From: Synura sp. LO234KE
Lineage: Eukaryota; Sar; Synurophyceae; Synurales; Mallomonadaceae
DNA length: 38,439 bases
Direction of reading: 5' to 3'
Assembly (NCBI GenBank): GCA_015143735.1
Contig: VKHC01000005.1
Span: 1 to 38,439, forward strand
The notes under the pieces are model-generated. The model searched no databases. It was not told the origin of the DNA and worked only from the letters and a program-made list of their open reading frames with translations. The first letter of the stretch is position 1, and each line of letters starts with the position of its first letter. This document shows positions 11,418 to 36,700 of this stretch, piece after piece. The position numbers and the translations under genes are program-made.

Positions 11418-14400
11418 ATGTCTAAAGCTAAGATGATGGCGCTTAAGGTAAAGATACATTCCTTACAAGAAATTCTGTTTAAAATTTTATTTCCGCAACA
11501 ATAGCTTCTCGAATACGTTCAGTCGGAGAATGTGGTCGCTAGTGGAAAAATTCTCAGCGACTACCCAGATTCGGTTAGATGCAAAGATCATGTAAGATAT
11601 TTATACTCATGTTTTTCAAATCTGCTGTTCATATTTCTTCCTAGGAGGGATCGTCACCAATTATCCTCGCTGCCGGAAAAGGCAACGAAGAGATATTCAA
11701 AGTGCTACTCGCGAAAGGAGCAGACATAAACTTAAAAAATTATGTAAGGATCTGATCTGTCACTGCTACCACTTCTAAAACTCCTCACTTGTACTCCTGG
11801 TAACCTTAACGTGATCAGAACGGTTATACGCCGTTAATAATGGCATCTCAGGCTGGATCATACAGTATCGTATCAACTTTAGTTGAAAAGGAGGCTAAAG
11901 TAAACGATAAAACTAAGGTTCTCCATGATAATTATAAACGCATTAAAGTCGGAAGTTAATGGTTACTGTTTTACATTAATATGAAAATTCCACTATTGCA
12001 CATTCGCTGCATTAGACTGGATCAACTGCGCTGATGGAGGCGGCTAGAAATAATTTTGTCGATATATGCACCTTGCTGCTTGACCACGGGGCATCAATAG
12101 ACGACGTGAACACTGTAAGATTATGCTGCTTAATTTTGAAACTATTCGCCTTCCTTGATGTGTTAGTTGACGCTCGGAATAATAGAACATCACTCAAGGC
12201 GTAAATACTTAAAGCCATTAAATTAATTGCTTATCGTATAATATAGAGCGGTTACACAGCTTTGATGCTAGCTTGCAGGAGCGGACATGAGGAAGCTTGT
12301 ACTTTACTAGTTGATCGAGGAGCAAATATTAACCTCGAGAATTATGTGAGTGACAACTACTCTTATCAGTTCTTATATACTATAAATATCAGATTGACTT
12401 GAAGAATGTAGTTCGCCTTAACCCGAGTATCCTCTGTCACGTTGAATATCAAACTGTTTCACCGTTTCGTTAGAGTGGTAACACGGCCTTAACTCTAGCT
12501 GCTAGTGTTGGGCATGCGAGGGTTTGTGCAAAGCTTATATCCCACCAAGGAAATATATGGACTACTAATAAGGTAAGTTTATAGTAAACAAATGCATATT
12601 ATTTCTGTTACTTCCATCACCGCCCGTCCCAGTCATTCATCAGTTTTCAGGCCGCTGCTGATGTTCGGCTCATACACATATTCCGTATCAAATAGCTTAT
12701 CCCAACGCAATAATCCTATTCCTAGTTGACTTGCGCTGTCCCCATTCTCGTTTCTCACCCTATTCTTACTCTCCTACCCCTGCTCCATTACCAGAGTGGC
12801 AAGTGTACCTTAGAGTACTTGAATGAAAAGAACATTCATGACGCGGTCTTCCAGTCCTGTGTCCCAAACATGGCGGTTACAGATGATATCCTCCGGGACA
12901 GCGAACACGTTGTTACAAAGCTGTGGCTTTATATCGTCTCTGAAACCCGTGACAGATTCGTTAGTGAAGTCTCACAGCTGCTAGACAGCAATATGAGCAG
13001 AATAAAGTTAATGATGGATGCAAAAGATGAGAGTGGTAGGGCTGCCATGGATGTGGCCACCCCGAAGTGCAAACGCGCAATGCAGGAACGCACATTCTTC
13101 TTACTCCGCTATGAGATGAAGGAGGGCTTAGCGGAACACGTGTCTTCAACGTGTCAGGTTCGATTAGCAAAAGATCACGCCCACGGAGGACGACGTGTCG
13201 CTTTGAAGTTTGTCAAAAAACGAGAGCATTTTCTTCGGGAGACTGCAGCCCGTGACTTCGGGAATCTGGACGCACAGTATGTAATCGAGGTACTGGACAC
13301 GTACGACGGAGAAGTGCAAGAGCAGTACAGATCCGAGGCGGCGAGCCGTGGGTATTATAATCATTGCATTGTAATGGTGGCAGCGGAGCGCAATCTGGCT
13401 GCAGTTTTAACGCATGAGCACTTGGCTGGGAGGGACTGGGACAAGCTGCGCATGATTGCTCGAGAGATCGTTGGAGCGGTGGGGCATATGCATAGTAAGG
13501 GACTCGTGCATGGAGATTTGAAACCGTTGAATATAATGCGAACTCAAGGGAGATTCAGATTGATCGATTTGGACGGAAGTGTCCGGACAGGTACTGCTTC
13601 TAGGCTTGGATATAAGCTCAGCACGGCCTACTGTCCGCCTGAATGTCTCGCGTATCGGAGTGCTGCTGTGGTGGGCGGAGATAAGGGTTCGAATTCTGGT
13701 AGCAACTCTGGTGTCTGTGGGGGAAAGATTGGGACGAAGACTGTACCGGCGGACCCGTCATTTGATATGTGGTCGCTGGGCGCTACCCTCTTTCATCTGT
13801 TTACAGGACAGCCGCTGCTCTTAGCCGATGATGAAGGAAACACGAACGTGCATCAACTACAATTATTACACGACTGGACCGACGAATTTAAGTCCGAGAG
13901 ACTGGACTGTGTCCGTGACAAGTCAGCGCGAAACCTGTTGTCTCGACTGCTCACGAAAGATCCCAAAAAACGACCAGATGTGGCACATGTACTCGCCCAT
14001 CCATTCTTTACGGGGAGGAAGGCTGCGAGGATGGTGGGCGAGGAGGCGGAGTACGACGTGTTTATATCGTATCGAGTGGCGAGCGATGCGCACTACGCGG
14101 AGCTGATGTACGACTTGTTGACGAAAGAGGGGCTCAAAGTATGGTGGGATAAGCGCTGTCTCAGACCTGGGGTGCCTTGGGAAGAAGGTTTCTGTGACGG
14201 ATTACTATCCAGTCGGACGTTCGTACCCATTCTCAGCAGAAGGGCGATCAAGAATCCTGGCAGTGAAAGACAGAATTTTGAATTATTAACGGCTGCCTCG
14301 TCCATTGATAGTGTTCTTCTAGAACACAGGATGGCGCTCGAGTTTCAGCACTTGAAGCTCATTGAGGGCATATATCCGTTGATGATCGGCGACGCAATAG

Positions 14401-15363
14401 GTGATCCCAGAGCTGATCCGATCACGTTGGAGTACACCGATTACTTCGCCACGGGATGTCATCCCAACGTGCCTGACGTTCATGTTCTCGCGGTAGAGCG
14501 CAAGTTGAAGGAGCATTTTGACCGATTGGGTCTCGGAGAGCCGATCGGACTCGAGCGTAGTGTGAAGGCCGTGATGGACAAAGTGATGGAGAATCAAGGT
14601 GGGTTAATCGCTGGTCCTGGAGAAGTGGCGTTTCCATCAGCAGTACGGGCAATTAATGAGATGGTGGAAGACCTGAAAAGTAAGGAAATGTGGTTGCGTA
14701 AGGCGCGTAGTACCTCGGTAACCGGTATGGGTGAAGCTCTGGCGGAGGCGTTAGCGTTAAAGGATGCTCAATTGGGAGAGATGTCACTGAAGATGAACCA
14801 GGTCAAGGAAGGCCTCCACCGCCTGGAAGTCATATTGACCGATGTGATGAGGGCAGAAGGGAGGCTTAGGAGTGCCAATGGCAGGTCCACGGTAAGTACC
14901 TTGCACGATAGCGTTCATTATTGGGCGTTGCAGTTCACAAGGTTATGGATAACTAAGACATGCAAGTATGTTATTTTAACTTGTATGATTGTGTCTATGC
15001 AAACAGGAGAATTCCTCAAGGCGGCGTCCATCGGTACTTCAAAGCGGTAGCAACAGCTTGGGTGCACTTCCCGTCCTCTCGGGTAGCAGCAGCGCTTCTA
15101 ATACAGCTTGGTCATCAAATCCTAATCATTCTTCAACAGTTTCGTGGACGGAGCGCCTTTCGATTGGTCTTGAGGAAATCAGAAATCTTATCGGTGAAAC
15201 GACTGAAGACTTCTGGTCAGGGAAACAATCAAACAACACCAGCGACGGCCGCTTAGTGCCATACGGTGGAATCAGGGAGGAGCCGTCACCGGCCCTACCA
15301 TCGATACATTCGCCAAGTTCAGTTATCATCAACGCTCGAATGATACGAACAGCTAAGTTCTAG
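11418..15363 (+). CDS. Ankyrin repeat - protein kinase - TIR domain protein (1021 residues, nine exons)
   Basis: Exons, all phase 0: 11418-11447, 11505-11591, 11645-11743, 11819-11917, 12016-12114, 12247-12345, 12474-12572, 12795-14891 and 15007-15363 (TAG). Residues 40-204 are five ankyrin repeats of exactly 33 residues, one per exon, with the usual G-T-AL-A-G-LL-GA pattern. Residues about 305-611 form a kinase: VALKF lysine near 342, HGDLKPLN with Asp 445, DLD in place of DFG at 462, CPPE near 487, and DMWSLG near 528. HGD for HRD makes it a non-RD kinase. Residues about 623-737 are a TIR domain (EYDVFISYR, then KVWWDKRCLRPGVPW). The glutamate of LLEHRMALEF (near 714) sits where NADase TIRs keep the catalytic Glu. 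A helical stretch, a probable coiled coil (about 850-895) and a Ser/Asn-rich tail follow. There is no signal peptide or membrane segment, so it is likely cytosolic. A stress or immune signalling role is inferred from TIR and non-RD kinase precedents. It is divergent from the 210-residue gene. Confidence 0.9.
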
Positions 15364-16543: not shown

Positions 16544-17230
16544 TCAGGGTCCTCGGGTCAGGGTCTCCAGGCGACGAGCAGTCCGGCCTCTGGCGGCGAG
16601 ATTGTCCACCACCTCCGCGTTACCGGGGGCAAGTGGAGTATCCGCTGCAGTGTACGCCGGCGTCCAGGAGATGGATATGTCATTGTCCCGTTTGACTTGG
16701 TCCAGTAGAACATTAATCCGGGCGATAAGGCGCTTGTTGGCCACGGGTTTGATGGAGCGGGTGGCAACGAGCTTTACACAATGGTCGCTGTCAGATACGA
16801 GATTGTAGCGCGGGCGGATGTCCGGGGGGATAGACTTGCATCTCTTCCGACTCCAAGCGAGGGCTTGGTAGATGGAACTAAGTTCCACGGTGGTGCTGGT
16901 GGGCCGCATGGCACCAATCCAGGAGGGGCGGGCGGCGGATGTGATCACTGGTTCCCAAAGCGCTTGGGTCTCAGGGGAGCCGGGGAAGGTAATGTGAATT
17001 CCCCAGCCTGCCGGGCCGTTGTGAAGCGCAGAGCCGTCAGTGAACAGGAAGGCGGTGGGGTCGTCGAATAAAGGGTCGCCGGGCCAGGTGGACTTGGCCA
17101 TGTATTCCTCGGCCCTCGTCATCGAGGAGAAACGCTTGACATCAGAGTGGATGCCGAGGGTGTGGGGCCGTGCTTCTTGCCACGATGTATAGATCCCGGG
17201 GACATGACCCAGGCGTATCGCATAGAAAAC
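16544..17230 (-). pseudogene. RNase H domain with hybrid-binding domain (retroelement pol 3' part)
   Basis: The frame runs open from about 17300 to a stop at 16544. It first encodes an RNase H1-type RNA/DNA hybrid-binding domain: FYAIRLGHVPGIYTSWQEA, then VKRFSSMTRAEEYM. The RNase H catalytic domain follows, with the four acidic residues visible: FTDGSA (Asp), TTVELSSIYQAL (Glu), LVSDSDHCVKL (Asp) and GNAEVVDNLA (Asp). The catalytic module therefore looks intact. The upstream part of the polyprotein lies in another frame (18218-17457), so the element as a whole is broken or incomplete. It would degrade RNA in RNA/DNA hybrids during reverse transcription. Confidence 0.82.
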
Positions 17231-17456
17231 AGTGGGTGGGGAAGCCGCAGCTGACCGAGCTTGGAAACAGCGGCATTGTAGAGCGCGTACCGTGAGTGGA
17301 TATGCTTCAGGCGTGGAGTAGATAGCGCGAAAGTAGGCCGCCTGCTATCAAACCTATTGACTAAGTGCTTGCTCAGAGTGAGAAGACTGTTACTCAGGGC
17401 TTGCACCAAATCAGTAGGTTGGACCACATGGTCAAGTTGAGTGATCTGATAGGTAT

Positions 17457-18218
17457 TCAGTTACCCATGCAGAGGCGGTGGCCGTCCTCCTCTAGTGATA
17501 GTCGTAGGAGGACCTGAAAAAGTCGCTGGTCGAGGTCCGTAAGCAGGGGAACAGTGAGCAGATACTGTTTGACTGAGGCCGCGCTTGGCAGTGAAGAGCG
17601 GTAGAGATGATCATAGGTGTCCTCTGCCGATGTTGAGTCAGATGCGCAGAGTGGGCGGATGAGTAGGGTCTTGCGAGCTGCGGCCGTCTTGGCGCCCTTG
17701 CCGACATTATGTCCTACCATCCAGTGGCGCTCATGAAGGAGGCGTTCGTAGTGTCCCCTTGCCCCTGGTGACAAGGAGGCGAGGTTGAGGACCTTGGAGG
17801 CAAACCGAAGAGTGACATCCTGCAATCGGGGAGGATAGAGACGAAAGGCGCGGTCTTGGTCGCGAGCGAGTTGGGCTTCCGACCTCTTGGTGTCCAGGAT
17901 GCGGTCTTCAAGGGGGATGAGAAGCATGGCATCCGTGGAAGGGTCCAGCCAGACCCAGCGATCGAGAAGAAAATCCCCGGGTACACACACCGCCAAGGGG
18001 AGGACCTGGAGAGGTTGCTCGCGAAATTTAGTCCCATAGATGGAGGAGCAGAGTTCCACCTGAGAGAGGCCCGACACGGCATAGGCGGAGGCTAAGGCCA
18101 TCCCCAGGGCGGGAGCGGTGAGTGACTCCGGGGTGAGCCCCCCAGGAGTGGCGGCATAGCAGACTCGGCGCGAGGAACTGAGGTGAAGATGGGCGATCTC
18201 ATACAGAAGATCTGCCAC
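17457..18218 (-). pseudogene. Retroelement pol fragment upstream of RNase H (zinc-knuckle-like region)
   Basis: A 253-codon open frame with a His/Cys-bearing stretch (LLHERHWMVGHN, then PLCASDSTSAEDTYDHLY). This recalls the region after reverse transcriptase in non-LTR elements, where a C-x2-C-like knuckle and an EDT-H motif precede RNase H. No YADD or FADD polymerase motif is present. A stop at 17457 separates it from the RNase H frame. It is most likely the 3' remnant of a 5'-truncated or decayed pol. The assignment rests on layout and short motifs, so it is tentative. Confidence 0.5.
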
Positions 18219-18413
18219 TTCATTGGAGAAAGACTCCGGAAAAGAGCGGAAGGATTTGACAAGAGCAGGATCTGGGAGGCAAATGTCCAGATCACGGACA
18301 TCCGCCTCCGGGTCGGGCTCCCATAGACCCCGTAAGATACCGGCGAGTAGCAGAACTCTGGTGGTAGGGCTGGTGCTCTTAGAGGGAATCTCGCTCTGAT
18401 AAAGGGTCGGTGT

Positions 18414-18781
18414 CCTACATATGCGCGCGGTATCATTACTAGCACCAGAGCATCACAGCATTTAGTACCTCGTGCGTCGCTGATAAATGCATTTTTAGAA
18501 TTGCATGATGCATGGGGTGGCTGCGGGCGGAGCAAAAAAACAAAGAAAATTTTTTCCCGTCAGTTTTGGTCGTACAAGTGTTTCGAAGTTCTGTGAAGTA
18601 ATTGCCGAAAATCCAGTAGTTATTTATTGAAGTCCTGTGGAGTAATCATACTCAGATGCTTCCTAATATGCGAGATGATAAATCGACCTTGAAGTTACCA
18701 ATTCTTAAACTTATTGACAAACTAACTATACCAAACGCAATATCAGTGGTTGCTGTGAATATGGTACAAGGAATTTTTTCT
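18414..18781. repeat. Direct repeat, right copy (retroelement flank)
   Basis: Partner of 15758-16104, in the same orientation. It starts cctacatatgcgcgcggtat and carries small insertions relative to the left copy, including cacagcattta and cgtacaagtgtttcga. Downstream of 18781 the sequences differ, marking the repeat boundary. Confidence 0.9.
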
Positions 18782-25979: not shown

Positions 25980-26452
25980 GAAGGCAAATAAAGTGCCCGC
26001 GGTTCACCGATTTCCGGTTCGCCATGCGGGCCTACTAATTACTCTCTTTTAAGTTTTTCGTATATTTAAATGAGAATTACTTCTGTGTCCTGAGCTGATC
26101 TCGCCATCCTCAAGCTCTAATTTCTCAATTATTGGACGATTTTCCATCCTGTACTATAATTGAGAATTTTCTGGATCACACGGCTCATCACCACATTTAA
26201 TCAAATCATCTGTGATGAGGTGAGGTTTTATTAACACGTGCCAATAAAATTCGATTTCCAAGATATGCCGTAAGCTTTCACCATAATCCAAATATTTTTA
26301 GAAATAATCTGAGAATCTGGATGTTATTGATTGTTTGATATCGTCCAATATTTACGCCGTGGAAGAATATTTCTTGTTAGTTTTTCATGGGTATACAAAG
26401 TCTTCTGTGTATACCATTATAGTAACAGCGAAGTGACAAAGTTCCAATTGTT
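25980..26452. promoter_or_regulatory. Divergent intergenic region (Lys/Ser-rich gene / PIG-V)
   Basis: 473 bp between two divergent starts. Near 26000-26037, GCCCGC and GCGGGC flank ggttcaccgatttccggttcgccat, giving a 6-bp hairpin arm with two ggttc-c words inside. No other element was identified. Confidence 0.4.
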
Positions 26453-28125
26453 ATGGCACTCAAATTTTTTGTTTATGCGGTAGCAGTTCGTGTAGCATAC
26501 TGCGTTCTATCCGTCATTCTGGATTCATTTTTTGTTGACCATGAGGCGTCTGGTGTGGAAACACTGAAATTAGGATACCAAAGTGATACAAGGTTGATAT
26601 TGCTAAGGCCATTCACAAAATGGGATTCGGCTCATATTATAAGTATTGCTCAAAATTATTATAAGCGAGAAACTTCGTTTGCATTCTTTCCGTTATATCC
26701 GGCGCAGATCCGCAATGCTTGTTTAATGTTCAGTTTGGGGCGGTTCAAATGCTTAGAAGAGCACTTTGTTATATCTGGATTACTTCTTAATATTCTGTTT
26801 TTTTCGATTGCGAGTAATAGTCTCCTTAAAATCGCCACGGGATTTAATGCACCAACAAATCAAGTACGAGCAGCATTTTTCTGTTTTTGCTTTAATCCTG
26901 CTGGAATATTTTTTACCACAATATATACCGAGTCTACTTTTGCAAAGTTCGGTTTCATGGGAATACGGGCGATATCCTCAAATTCGGCCATTTCGTTGTT
27001 AATTTGTTATATTTTGTTTACATGTGCTTCATTTACTCGATCTAATGGAATCTTGAATGTCATTTTCACATCGTGGCAAATTCTGGTGGTGTTGAACAAC
27101 AATTTAATGAACGCTAAAGGTGCTCGATGGTTCCTAGCCTCAATGCAAGTGCTAGCATTATTCATGATGTCCATAGCCATATGTTTGCCTTTCTGGATAC
27201 ATAACGAAACCTCGCGAATTCCATTTTGCACGATAGGAAACAATCATCAATTACCTATATGTCAACAAGTTATCTTCGAGGGCAGTAGAAACGCATGCTG
27301 CTCTACTACCCCCAAATATGTACAGAGGTTCGCTAATGTGTATGCGTGGGTACAACGTGTGCACTGGAATGTGGGTTTCCTCCATCAATATCAGATTCGT
27401 CAACTACCCAACTTTATCCTATCCACTCCAATCGTCTTGTTGGCCAGTCACTGCATTTTTTATGAGATATATAGAGCGATGAAGGTGTATACCGCTCACC
27501 GTAGCGTCTTAACCTGCACCCGGGATAGGGCGGTGTGCGGGGGTGCGAGGGTTTCAAGGGACGTTATTTCAGTGAAGGGGAAGTTTTTGTGGAAGGATGT
27601 AACGGACTTTGTTGGGTACATGATTATGAGGCCAGAGACACCTCATCTGATTCATTTATCCGGTGAGCATTGTTTGAAGGGTAACCTTAGGAGACTTTAC
27701 CACCGTTCGCCAAGCCTTTCACCCCTCCCACGACGCCACTCATAGGACGACGCTCTGCACTAGTAATTCATTCCAGTCCTTTTCACTTTCTATTTCTCGG
27801 ATGTCCCTTGATCATCCACTCACAGCTATCCGCCACTAATTCAGGTTTATTCGATATATGAAATTATGGCACTCACCGCTACCCCTTATCCCATGCAGCC
27901 TTGCTTGCTTTAGGCATGTTCGTCGCCCATGTCCAAGTCACCACTCGTCTACTGTGCTCCTCCTGCCCTATCCTCTACCTACACATGGCACGGATTCTGA
28001 CGCAAGAGTTGGAGGGGTGGAGCCCGACAGGCCGGAGGGCGCTTCAACGGGTGTTTGTGGGGTATCTTGTGGTCTATAACGTTCTAGGAACCGCCCTACA
28101 CGTCAACTTTTATCCATGGACCTGA
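26453..28125 (+). CDS. PIGV: GPI mannosyltransferase 2 (PIG-V), two exons, ~478 residues
   Basis: PIG-V is a multi-span ER membrane enzyme that adds the second mannose to the GPI-anchor precursor from dolichol-phosphate-mannose. Exon 1 (26453-27662) ends in phase 1 at G|gtgagc. Exon 2 (27899-28125, TGA) begins after ccatgcag and restores the frame. Family motifs in order: FTKWDSAHIISIAQ in the first lumenal loop, AFFPLYP, FNPAGIFFTTIYTES, FTRSNGILN, VHWNVGFLHQYQIRQLPNF, then in exon 2 HVQVTTRLLCSSCP and the terminal NFYPWT. Many hydrophobic segments are visible. Length matches the family (about 450-500). The intron of 236 nt is long for this window. The start is the only ATG before the first membrane segment. 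Confidence 0.93.
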
Positions 28126-34021: not shown

Positions 34022-36624
34022 CTAATTTTGGTCCTCGCTCGATAGCTTTGTATCCAAGGTCTTTGGGAAGGAGGCGAACTTCTTGTATTTAGGCTTCGAC
34101 CATACCAAACCAAGGAGAGCAAGCAAGCTGTGTAACAACGTCAGAGTTCCTAGAGCTCGAGCACTTCTGCCTACGGTTGCATCCGGAATACGAAGCGCGT
34201 TCATTATGTGTAGACCAGGATCCTCGGGAGGGCAAAATGGGTCGCGGGACCCGAGTAGTGTCCTCCAGATGGGCATCCTCGATACTAGTGGAGCAAGGGC
34301 TCCGAGTATTCTATCTGGAAATTTAGAATAGCATTCCCGAGTCAGAGCAATAAATCAATTCCACGCAAGAGGTTGGTGGTGGCGATGATGTAGAGTGGGA
34401 GGATGGAGGTGGGGTAAGAGGAGGGGACCGGCACTGACATGGAAGTGGAGGCTTGTCTTGAGTCAAGTGGGCAAGTGGGGCATCTCTGAACTCCAGCGCG
34501 CAGAAGGCCTCACACCCCCATTTGATCGGACTGCCCTCGCGAAGGAAACTCAACGCTTTGGGTAACGGTTTCCCTAACGAAGACCGGTAGTCGAAATACA
34601 CAACGAAGGTGATTGTTAGCAAGGCACCCACGTCAATATATGTAGGCAAGTACTCTATTAAGCACAGTGCGCTGTTTATAACTGTCACGGTATATATCAC
34701 TCAACCGGAAACCAATCATCTCCGATAATAACGAAGGCAGGGGGAGGGGACATACCTGCTCCCGTGGGCCCGACCGCTCCTGTGATGACATAGACGATCA
34801 TTAAGGCAGGACCTACGGCCAGGGCGACCTCCCCGCTGGGAAATAAGGCGGCAACGGCCATACCCAACGTGGAGCAGGTCATGCCCAAGAGGACGGATAG
34901 CGCGGTGAAGCGGGCTCGGTCACACGCCATCTGGGTCTGTTGATGCAACACGCTGGCCATGATCTGGGTCATGGAGAAAAGGAATCACATACTTGAGAGG
35001 ATGGTAAGCGAGTGGGATGCTATGATAGGATATGGAGGCTTGTGCAGCAGGGAAGGGACGGCTTATGGGTGGGAGAAAGAGCGCGGTCTTTACTAGTTGC
35101 ATGTAATGGAATCCAAGTGTTTATGGGACAGTAACTCTGCCAAGGCGCACGGGAAGGGGGGAGCAGGGACGGAAAGGCGGACAGACGAGGACTTACCGCC
35201 GCCATCAGCGCCGTGAGAGGGGAGTCCGCCGTAAACTTAGCCAAAAGGTACTCTAGAGAATTATAGCTGTGCTGAACTCTCTCCCGCTGAACCACCACCC
35301 GCTCCCTCTTGAACGTCTGTAATGTCTTAATGGTGGCGAGCATCGCCACGTTCACTGCTAAGTTCGCAATTGCGGTGACCGCGTCTGACAGGCTCAGTGA
35401 TTCCCCTGCGGAGGGTTTGAATACGGAACCAATTGCAAAACCTAATATTGCCGATACAGATAACAGAGCGAAGCTGCCAAAGCCATCGCGTAGGTTTTGT
35501 TTCAAAGCTCGTCCCAGCACGAGGGAGAAGCGACGAAAGGAAGTCCTAATTGCCCTAAACGGTCGGAATAGTAATCTCACAACGCCTTGCTTGGAAGCTT
35601 GCTCGGCAATCGATATGTTGGAAAAGCTGCCGATATCATGATGATTTTTGTTACCTGCCCTATCCTCTTCCACAAGGTTAGCTGTTGAATGAAGACTGTG
35701 ATATAAGGAACTAGAAGAAAACGCTTCAGCCAGAGCATCCGCTCGCATTAGACTCTCTTCAATAGATCTTTTATTTGTACTGTTTCGGGAAACGATCTCG
35801 ATGAGAAACTCCGCAGGGTTGGTCAGGGCCGGACATGGATAGCCAATGGAATCGAAGTATGGAAGTATATTTATCCGGGGACCAAAGTAGGCAACTTTCC
35901 CGTGAAAAGTCAATAGTATGACATCATCTAGCATGCTAAATATTGAACTTCCAGGTTGATGGACAGTGCAAACAATAATCAATCGCTTTTCAACAGCTAT
36001 CTTTTTAAAAGTAGATATGACTTGATGAGCCTGGAAGAAATCCAATCCCGATGTGGGTTCATCCGCTATTAGTACCTTTTTGTTTCCCATGAGCTCACAT
36101 GCGATAGAAAGTCGCTTTTTCTCACCTCCACTCATTCCACGGACGTTTTCATCCCCGACACGAGTATTGGCAACATGATGTAAGTTGAAAGTAAATAGAC
36201 TTGATTCTACGAGATTTTTTCGTTGAATAGGATCATCATCAACATCTTTTAATGATGCGGCTAAGGCTAGAGTTTCTCTAACAGTCAGTAGCGCAAAGTG
36301 ACTATCTAATTGATCGACATACGCTATTTCATGCCTGAGCAATACTTTGTCGTTAATGTCGTTGTATTTTACATCGGCGGTAAGGCAAAATGAAGAGTGA
36401 TCAATTATTCTTCCAGATATAGAGTTTAGAAAAGTTGTTTTTCCACAGCCTGATGGACCAATAACACCTAAGAGCCTGCCTGAAGTCGCATTACCTTGAC
36501 CAATGGACAAAATAGTGCGATCTCTATAAGATGCAGTAATATTTTTCCAATAAATGTAAGAGCAAGATGAAAATTTTATCTGCGTGGCGCTCAGCAGAAA
36601 AATTCTAACAAATAACCCGATCAT
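34022..36624 (-). CDS. ABC transporter G family half-transporter (WHITE-type), four or more exons
   Basis: A nucleotide-binding domain followed by a membrane domain, the ABCG order. Exon 1 (36624-35197, 476 codons) has Walker A GPSGCGKTT near residue 57, the signature MSGGEKKRLSIACEL, Walker B VLIADEPTSGLD and CTVHQPGSS. Two membrane segments follow (FALLSVSAILGFAIGSV and then the AVNVAMLATI region). Exon 2 (34963-34756) joins in phase 0 across 234 nt and gives STLGMAVAALFPSGEVALAV. Exon 3 starts at 34573 (phase 1), with LPKALSFLREGSPIKWG and ALEFRDA. The last exon holds RIPDATVGRSARALGTLTLL and a final membrane segment, ending TAG at 34022. The exon 3/4 junction was not fixed. Members export lipids, sterols or drugs as dimers; the substrate here is unknown. 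The start lies 76 bp from the UPRT gene. Confidence 0.9.
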
Positions 36625-36700
36625 ATCAATATAAGGAACCGACGTGAAAATCGGACTACGACGTAGGCACTACAAAAGCTTCACGTCACAGTGACAACCT
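36625..36700. promoter_or_regulatory. 76-bp divergent intergenic region (ABCG / UPRT)
   Basis: The whole space between two divergent ATGs. An upstream non-coding exon for UPRT cannot be excluded. No defined element was recognised. Shared regulation is inferred from spacing. Confidence 0.45.

Follow-up and report, generated by a model that had tools for sequence, protein, structure and literature searches.

The window, by which we mean the whole stretch of 38,439 nucleotides analysed here (contig C5 of an assembly of 8.09 Mb in 549 contigs), carries on its forward strand a gene of nine exons at positions 11418..15363, which is predicted to encode a chain of 1021 residues, followed by TAG, with five ankyrin repeats, a protein kinase and a TIR domain. 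Both the exons and this joining of domains had been put forward in an earlier reading of the letters, called here the sequence-only reading. The exons could be rebuilt as claimed, with all eight introns GT-AG and in phase 0, and the presence of the three parts in one predicted chain is borne out by the rebuilt exons, by Pfam and by alignment with a relative, P0013. The gene is laid out as follows.

11418..11447, forward strand: exon 1, 30 nt encoding 10 amino acids, with the start ATG and a GT donor, phase 0; P0013 also begins with MS
11505..11591, forward strand: exon 2, the N-terminal stretch ahead of the first full ankyrin exon, from the rebuilt model and the P0013 alignment
11645-11743, 11819-11917, 12016-12114, 12247-12345 and 12474-12572, forward strand: exons 3-7, one ankyrin repeat per 99-nt phase-0 exon
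12795..14891, forward strand: exon 8, 699 amino acids, with a degenerate ankyrin-like linker (judged by eye), kinase, TIR, C-terminal extension and long helix
14727..14876, forward strand: the long helix, a possible coiled coil, residues 849-898, from the secondary structure of the AlphaFold2 (AF2) model (exon-8 residues 645-694)
15007..15363, forward strand: exon 9, a Ser-rich tail and the stop, with a GTAAGT donor and a CAG acceptor

Pfam assigned Ank_2 (1.5e-35), Pkinase (5.7e-27) and TIR_2 (3.1e-11) to the 1021-residue model, all above the curated cut-offs. P0013, an uninterrupted open reading frame (ORF) of 1044 amino acids on a contig of 3430 bases, aligned with residues 15-927 of the model in a single BLASTP segment (39% identity, E 0.0) spanning the joins of exons 2-9, with similarity weak within exon 9, including its tail. 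Since a single ORF crosses the exon joins in one segment, the gene model is not a product of chance; exon 1, with its 30 nt, and exon 9 are its least certain parts. The same gene is also represented in EukProt by a model, P0063, that is 99% identical in the kinase, begins inside exon 8 and has neither the ankyrin exons nor the greater part of the TIR, while another record of the gene, P0060, stops ahead of the TIR. In the 1021 amino acids there is no 19-residue stretch with a mean hydropathy of 1.9 or more, and thus no predicted transmembrane segment, and the helix of residues 849-898 is consistent with a coiled coil.

The kinase and its motifs lie in exon 8.

13116..13988, forward strand: protein kinase domain, approximately residues 312-602, from Pfam Pkinase, the Foldseek kinase fold and motif counts
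13206-13208, forward strand: K342, the catalytic Lys
13509-13517, forward strand: HGD, residues 443-445, non-RD
13566-13574, forward strand: DLD, residues 462-464, the motif at the DFG position

The AF2 model of exon 8 has a predicted local distance difference test score of 90.1, and its Foldseek matches are kinases. The catalytic Lys, the catalytic Asp and the metal-binding Asp are all present in the window protein (K342, D445 and D462). Motifs were counted over 254 domain rows, in which domain pieces and near-duplicates are included (among the latter P0060 and P0063, which are the window gene, and P0067, which is C477) and gaps are left out, as they also are in the TIR counts below. In the family so counted, the Lys is kept in 165/165, the His in 176/177, the catalytic Asp in 176/177 and the metal-binding Asp in 170/176, and the residue just ahead of the catalytic Asp is never R, with G in 116 rows, A in 58 and C in 3. 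The predicted kinase is of the non-RD type, a type often met with in immune receptor kinases, and retains its catalytic residues.

The TIR domain follows the kinase.

14052..14390, forward strand: TIR core, residues 624-736
14322..14324, forward strand: codon of E714, the candidate catalytic glutamate, from alignment with SARM1 E642

The sequence-only reading had singled out a glutamate near residue 714, and E714 does align with E642 of SARM1 (MAFFT, SARM1 letters checked), a match that rests on alignment rather than on an atom-level overlay, the hhalign and HMMER alignments ending short of the position. Glutamate stands there in 176 of the 178 TIR rows with a residue at this place. Because the whole exon-8 model returned kinases among the 50 listed Foldseek rows, the TIR was modelled alone; the predicted structure has a SARM1-like fold, and SARM1 is its best structural match (27% identity over 128 aligned residues). 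Cleavage of NAD+ by this TIR is plausible, as is a role in immunity. One relative, P0001, matches the kinase-TIR query twice, and its first TIR has G at the glutamate position.

The kinase-TIR half of the gene is, as far as predicted domains tell, a module that is also joined to leucine-rich repeat (LRR) ectodomains in the same genome. This assembly, which is probably partial since a search of it for HSP90 found none, holds eight TIR_2 matches, seven of them above the cut-off, and 22 of its segments resemble exon 8. Four loci (C153, C126, C143 and C477) combine LRRs with kinase and TIR, and in each a transmembrane segment is predicted to separate the LRRs from the kinase; C126 has a further hydrophobic stretch within the kinase. 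At C250, LRRs and a transmembrane segment share one ORF, and a kinase and a degenerate TIR occupy the next ORFs. Other loci resemble the window gene. For example, C23 (L031) has ankyrin-like repeats ahead of kinase and TIR, as two near-copies of the exon block, and at C152 ankyrin exons and a kinase are accompanied by a divergent TIR, missed by Pfam TIR_2 and detected by the family's own profile, while C38 and C365, both running off the contig, show ankyrin repeats next to a linker-kinase match.

Some sequences stand apart from these paralogues. L040 (C217) and L039 (C234) represent a second TIR-like type with a CK(K/Q)E-type motif, and in C217 ankyrin matches follow the TIR-like sequence on the same strand, which suggests TIR-ankyrin proteins. 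A linker-like match also lies within an open frame of 4668 amino acids (C64:9997-10260, reverse strand).

The combination of domains had been thought uncommon, and this part of the sequence-only reading does not hold: our search lists contain at least 47 proteins with ankyrin repeats, kinase and TIR, and the kinase-TIR half occurs on LRR ectodomains as well. A first protein search, with exon-8 residues 360-569, found 64 proteins, of which nine had ankyrin, kinase and TIR, and one LRR, kinase and TIR. A second, with C477 as query, found 20 proteins, including P0071 and P0078, the latter joining a class C G protein-coupled receptor (GPCR)-like seven-transmembrane part to a kinase and a TIR that is cut short. 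P0071, which bears a EukProt name with an MMETSP number (MMETSP is a transcriptome project) and taxid 2988, Mallomonas, where contamination of the Mallomonas data is possible, served as the third query. This search, scoring only candidates that share most words with the query, found 139 proteins. All of the 120 listed, query included, have kinase and TIR, and among these matches at least 44 have ankyrin repeats, at least 36 LRRs and at least 40 neither, as assigned by reading the Pfam columns; the total of at least 47 adds three first-search proteins absent from the third list. Another sensor on the module is a Cys-rich ectodomain (judged by eye) with one predicted transmembrane segment (P0136). 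A further relative, P0081, has WWE (PF02825), kinase and TIR assigned but gave no row with the family's TIR profile.

In a tree of 45 kinase-TIR cores, made before the third search, a single branch (100/100) has all nine LRR rows to one side of it, although 25 of the 45 rows are without a sensor label and may fall inside either group, and the window gene adjoins P0013 (97/99). Rows in which a single hit covers fewer than 380 of the 510 query positions were excluded, as were P0060, P0063, P0067, P0001 and P0042, and P0048 entered as one continuous piece. A bacterial or viral origin of the module was considered and rejected on the strength of two scans that may miss distant relatives, as their patterns were strict. 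A GTDB scan with the TIR alignment yielded 16 pattern stretches, none confirmed as encoding a relative, and an IMG/VR scan with the same alignment yielded 20, none confirmed. Matches in PADLOC (those to the kinase-bearing models mad6, MkoA and PD-T4-6, and short ones to TIR) were put down to generic kinase or TIR similarity rather than to membership of a defence system.

Most of the ankyrin motifs counted in this genome follow one layout. With a strict motif applied to 15 sequences, 41 of 46 share the register of the window exons, each set in 99 bases that AG immediately precedes and GT or GC immediately follows. The count took in source strands with two or more motifs, so that L042 (C482), L044 (C148), L034 and L038 supply none of the 46. 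The motifs that depart from the frame number one each in L036, L045 and L047 and two in L046. Being symmetric and of phase 0, such 99-nt exons could be duplicated or moved with the frame kept. Recent duplication among the ankyrin exons of the window gene was rejected, as pairwise comparison finds 40 to 53 of the 99 bases identical. Elsewhere, at offsets 1967 and 4060 of L043 (C222), an ankyrin exon occurs twice with identical protein sequence. Brown algal LRR-ROCO candidates (PMC11378527) are of comparable design, each exon holding a single repeat and all keeping the same phase, so that exons can be shuffled, but there LRR exons of phase 2 are joined to ROC-COR, whereas in the window family ankyrin exons of phase 0 are joined to kinase-TIR.

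The host, a microscopic organism, is probably a chlorophyll-c alga of golden-brown type, an ochrophyte. A single match to the chlorophyll-binding family was found in its genome, closest in PDB to fucoxanthin chlorophyll a/c proteins (FCP; best 4.6e-55), and its EF1A is without the insertion typical of opisthokonts; a choanoflagellate host is argued against by this FCP-type light-harvesting protein and this EF1A. The only kinase-TIR relative with an organism name among the matches listed is that from Mallomonas, an ochrophyte.

Choanoflagellates provide the closest architectural parallel. Richter et al. (2018; PMC6040629) name 'Kinase TIRs' and 'Kinase TLRs', both held to be unique to choanoflagellates, propose for them a streamlined pathway that needs no kinase recruitment, and report separately that ankyrin repeats are associated with TIR in choanoflagellates. 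Like the Kinase TIRs described there, the window protein has kinase and TIR in one chain and no transmembrane segment; unlike them, it has an ankyrin array and a host with FCP-type light-harvesting protein. In its architecture the window gene resembles a Kinase TIR provided with an ankyrin sensor, a resemblance that may or may not reflect common descent. The LRR-transmembrane-kinase-TIR order of the Kinase TLRs in that text is shared by C153, C126, C143 and C477, which are paralogues of the window gene rather than the gene itself, in a host that is probably an alga. The LRR ectodomain and transmembrane segment that come ahead of the TIR in a Toll-like receptor are not seen in the window protein, which has no LRR family among its Pfam matches up to E 0.01 and no predicted transmembrane segment. 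SARM1 and the plant TIR-NLRs have the TIR fold and catalytic-type glutamate in common with the window TIR, but where their regulatory domains are ARM-SAM and NB-LRR (nucleotide-binding LRR), respectively, the window protein has ankyrin repeats and a kinase. The oomycete Aphanomyces has three proteins (P0083, P0084 and P0085) whose ankyrin array, linker and kinase part resemble the window family, with a Pfam kinase domain assigned in P0083 and P0085 and not in P0084, but which show no match to the family's TIR profile.

Of earlier surveys, one confined Toll-like receptors to animals, apart from some cases in land plants, and found diatom and brown algal LRR receptors to be without attached functional domains (2010; PMC2939053), and another put the LRR receptor kinases of Ectocarpus at two (2011; PMC3268121). 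No description of the window family in stramenopiles was found among the titles and abstract openings listed in the literature searched; most subscription journals lie outside it, and an earlier account may exist.

Taken together, we hypothesize, with a probability of roughly 0.5, that the window gene encodes a soluble receptor-kinase-TIR protein, the cytosolic branch of a modular family in an ochrophyte-type alga. In this hypothesis, a foreign or altered-self ligand would be bound by the ankyrin repeats inside the cell, or by LRRs outside it in the case of the paralogues, and binding would bring chains together, upon which the kinase might phosphorylate its own chain, a neighbour or a partner. 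The clustered TIRs would then cleave NAD+, giving a nucleotide signal or a drop in NAD+ in the manner of SARM1 and the TIR receptors of plants, so that a single chain might do the job that Toll-like receptors do via MyD88 and IRAK. The most likely use would be in innate immunity or the control of cell death.

Several observations weigh against this hypothesis. The glycine of the DFG motif is replaced by D, which is unusual for an active kinase, and this is the rule in the family: of the 175 rows with a residue at position 464, 166 have D there, 8 have E and 1 has G. The scaffold TIRs of IL-18Rbeta and MyD88 are also among the structural matches, a conserved glutamate and fold are no proof of NADase activity, and the TIR of C250 carries Q at the glutamate position, so that some members may signal without cleavage. 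Further, a Pfam scan of seven neighbouring ORFs found none that points to defence.

Alternative to immunity, the protein might be a receptor kinase for an ordinary cue in development, mating or nutrition, in which the TIR tunes NAD+ or makes a nucleotide messenger. The diversity of sensors on the module, including class C GPCR-like ones and those judged Cys-rich by eye, fits such a role, as does the life-cycle role proposed for oomycete LRR receptor kinases (PMC3268121). We consider it unlikely, if the strongest of the alternatives. TIR domains in receptors elsewhere serve mostly in immunity or cell death, which speaks against it. Somewhat less likely again is that the TIR serves as a scaffold for contacts between proteins, like those of Toll-like receptors and MyD88, with the kinase as the sole enzyme and the signal passed to partners by TIR-TIR contacts; the near-invariant glutamate and the NADase SARM1 as best structural match stand against this. 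Finally, an artificial fusion in the gene model, with the ankyrin exons coming from a gene of their own, is highly improbable and was rejected: the locus model is a prediction from DNA and P0063 starts within exon 8, but P0013 crosses the joins in one ORF and one aligned segment, relatives with ankyrin, kinase and TIR occur as single ORFs on long contigs (e.g., P0131, 903 amino acids, on a contig of 53,968 bases), and every intron of the window gene is in phase.

Returning to the receptor-kinase-TIR hypothesis, a wider version can be put forward tentatively, with the odds somewhat against it: that ochrophyte algae possess an entire receptor system of innate-immune type built on one exchangeable kinase-TIR module, with ankyrin sensors in the cell interior and surface sensors of LRR, Cys-rich or GPCR-like type, every sensor sharing its chain with a kinase and a TIR that cleaves NAD+, and with the ankyrin part able to diversify through its phase-0 99-nt exons, either sharing an ancestor with the choanoflagellate Kinase TLRs or having arisen separately from them. 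If this is true and the ancestor was shared, the fusion of receptor kinase and TIR would be far older than animals. The occurrence of kinase-TIR proteins, both soluble and with LRRs, in what is probably an ochrophyte extends the known range of such proteins beyond choanoflagellates, and the window gene offers a concrete, assayable candidate enzyme for the sensing of viruses and bacteria by microalgae, in which gating of a TIR NADase by a kinase inside one chain becomes testable.

Among the neighbours, Pfam identifies a PIG-V mannosyltransferase (26426-27745, forward strand) and an ABC transporter with an ABC-2 membrane part (35020-36669, reverse strand), neither with an obvious link to the window gene. 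Just downstream of the gene, at 16544-18452 on the reverse strand, are an RNase H and a Cauli_VI domain, with a neighbouring ORF that looks retroelement-like by eye.
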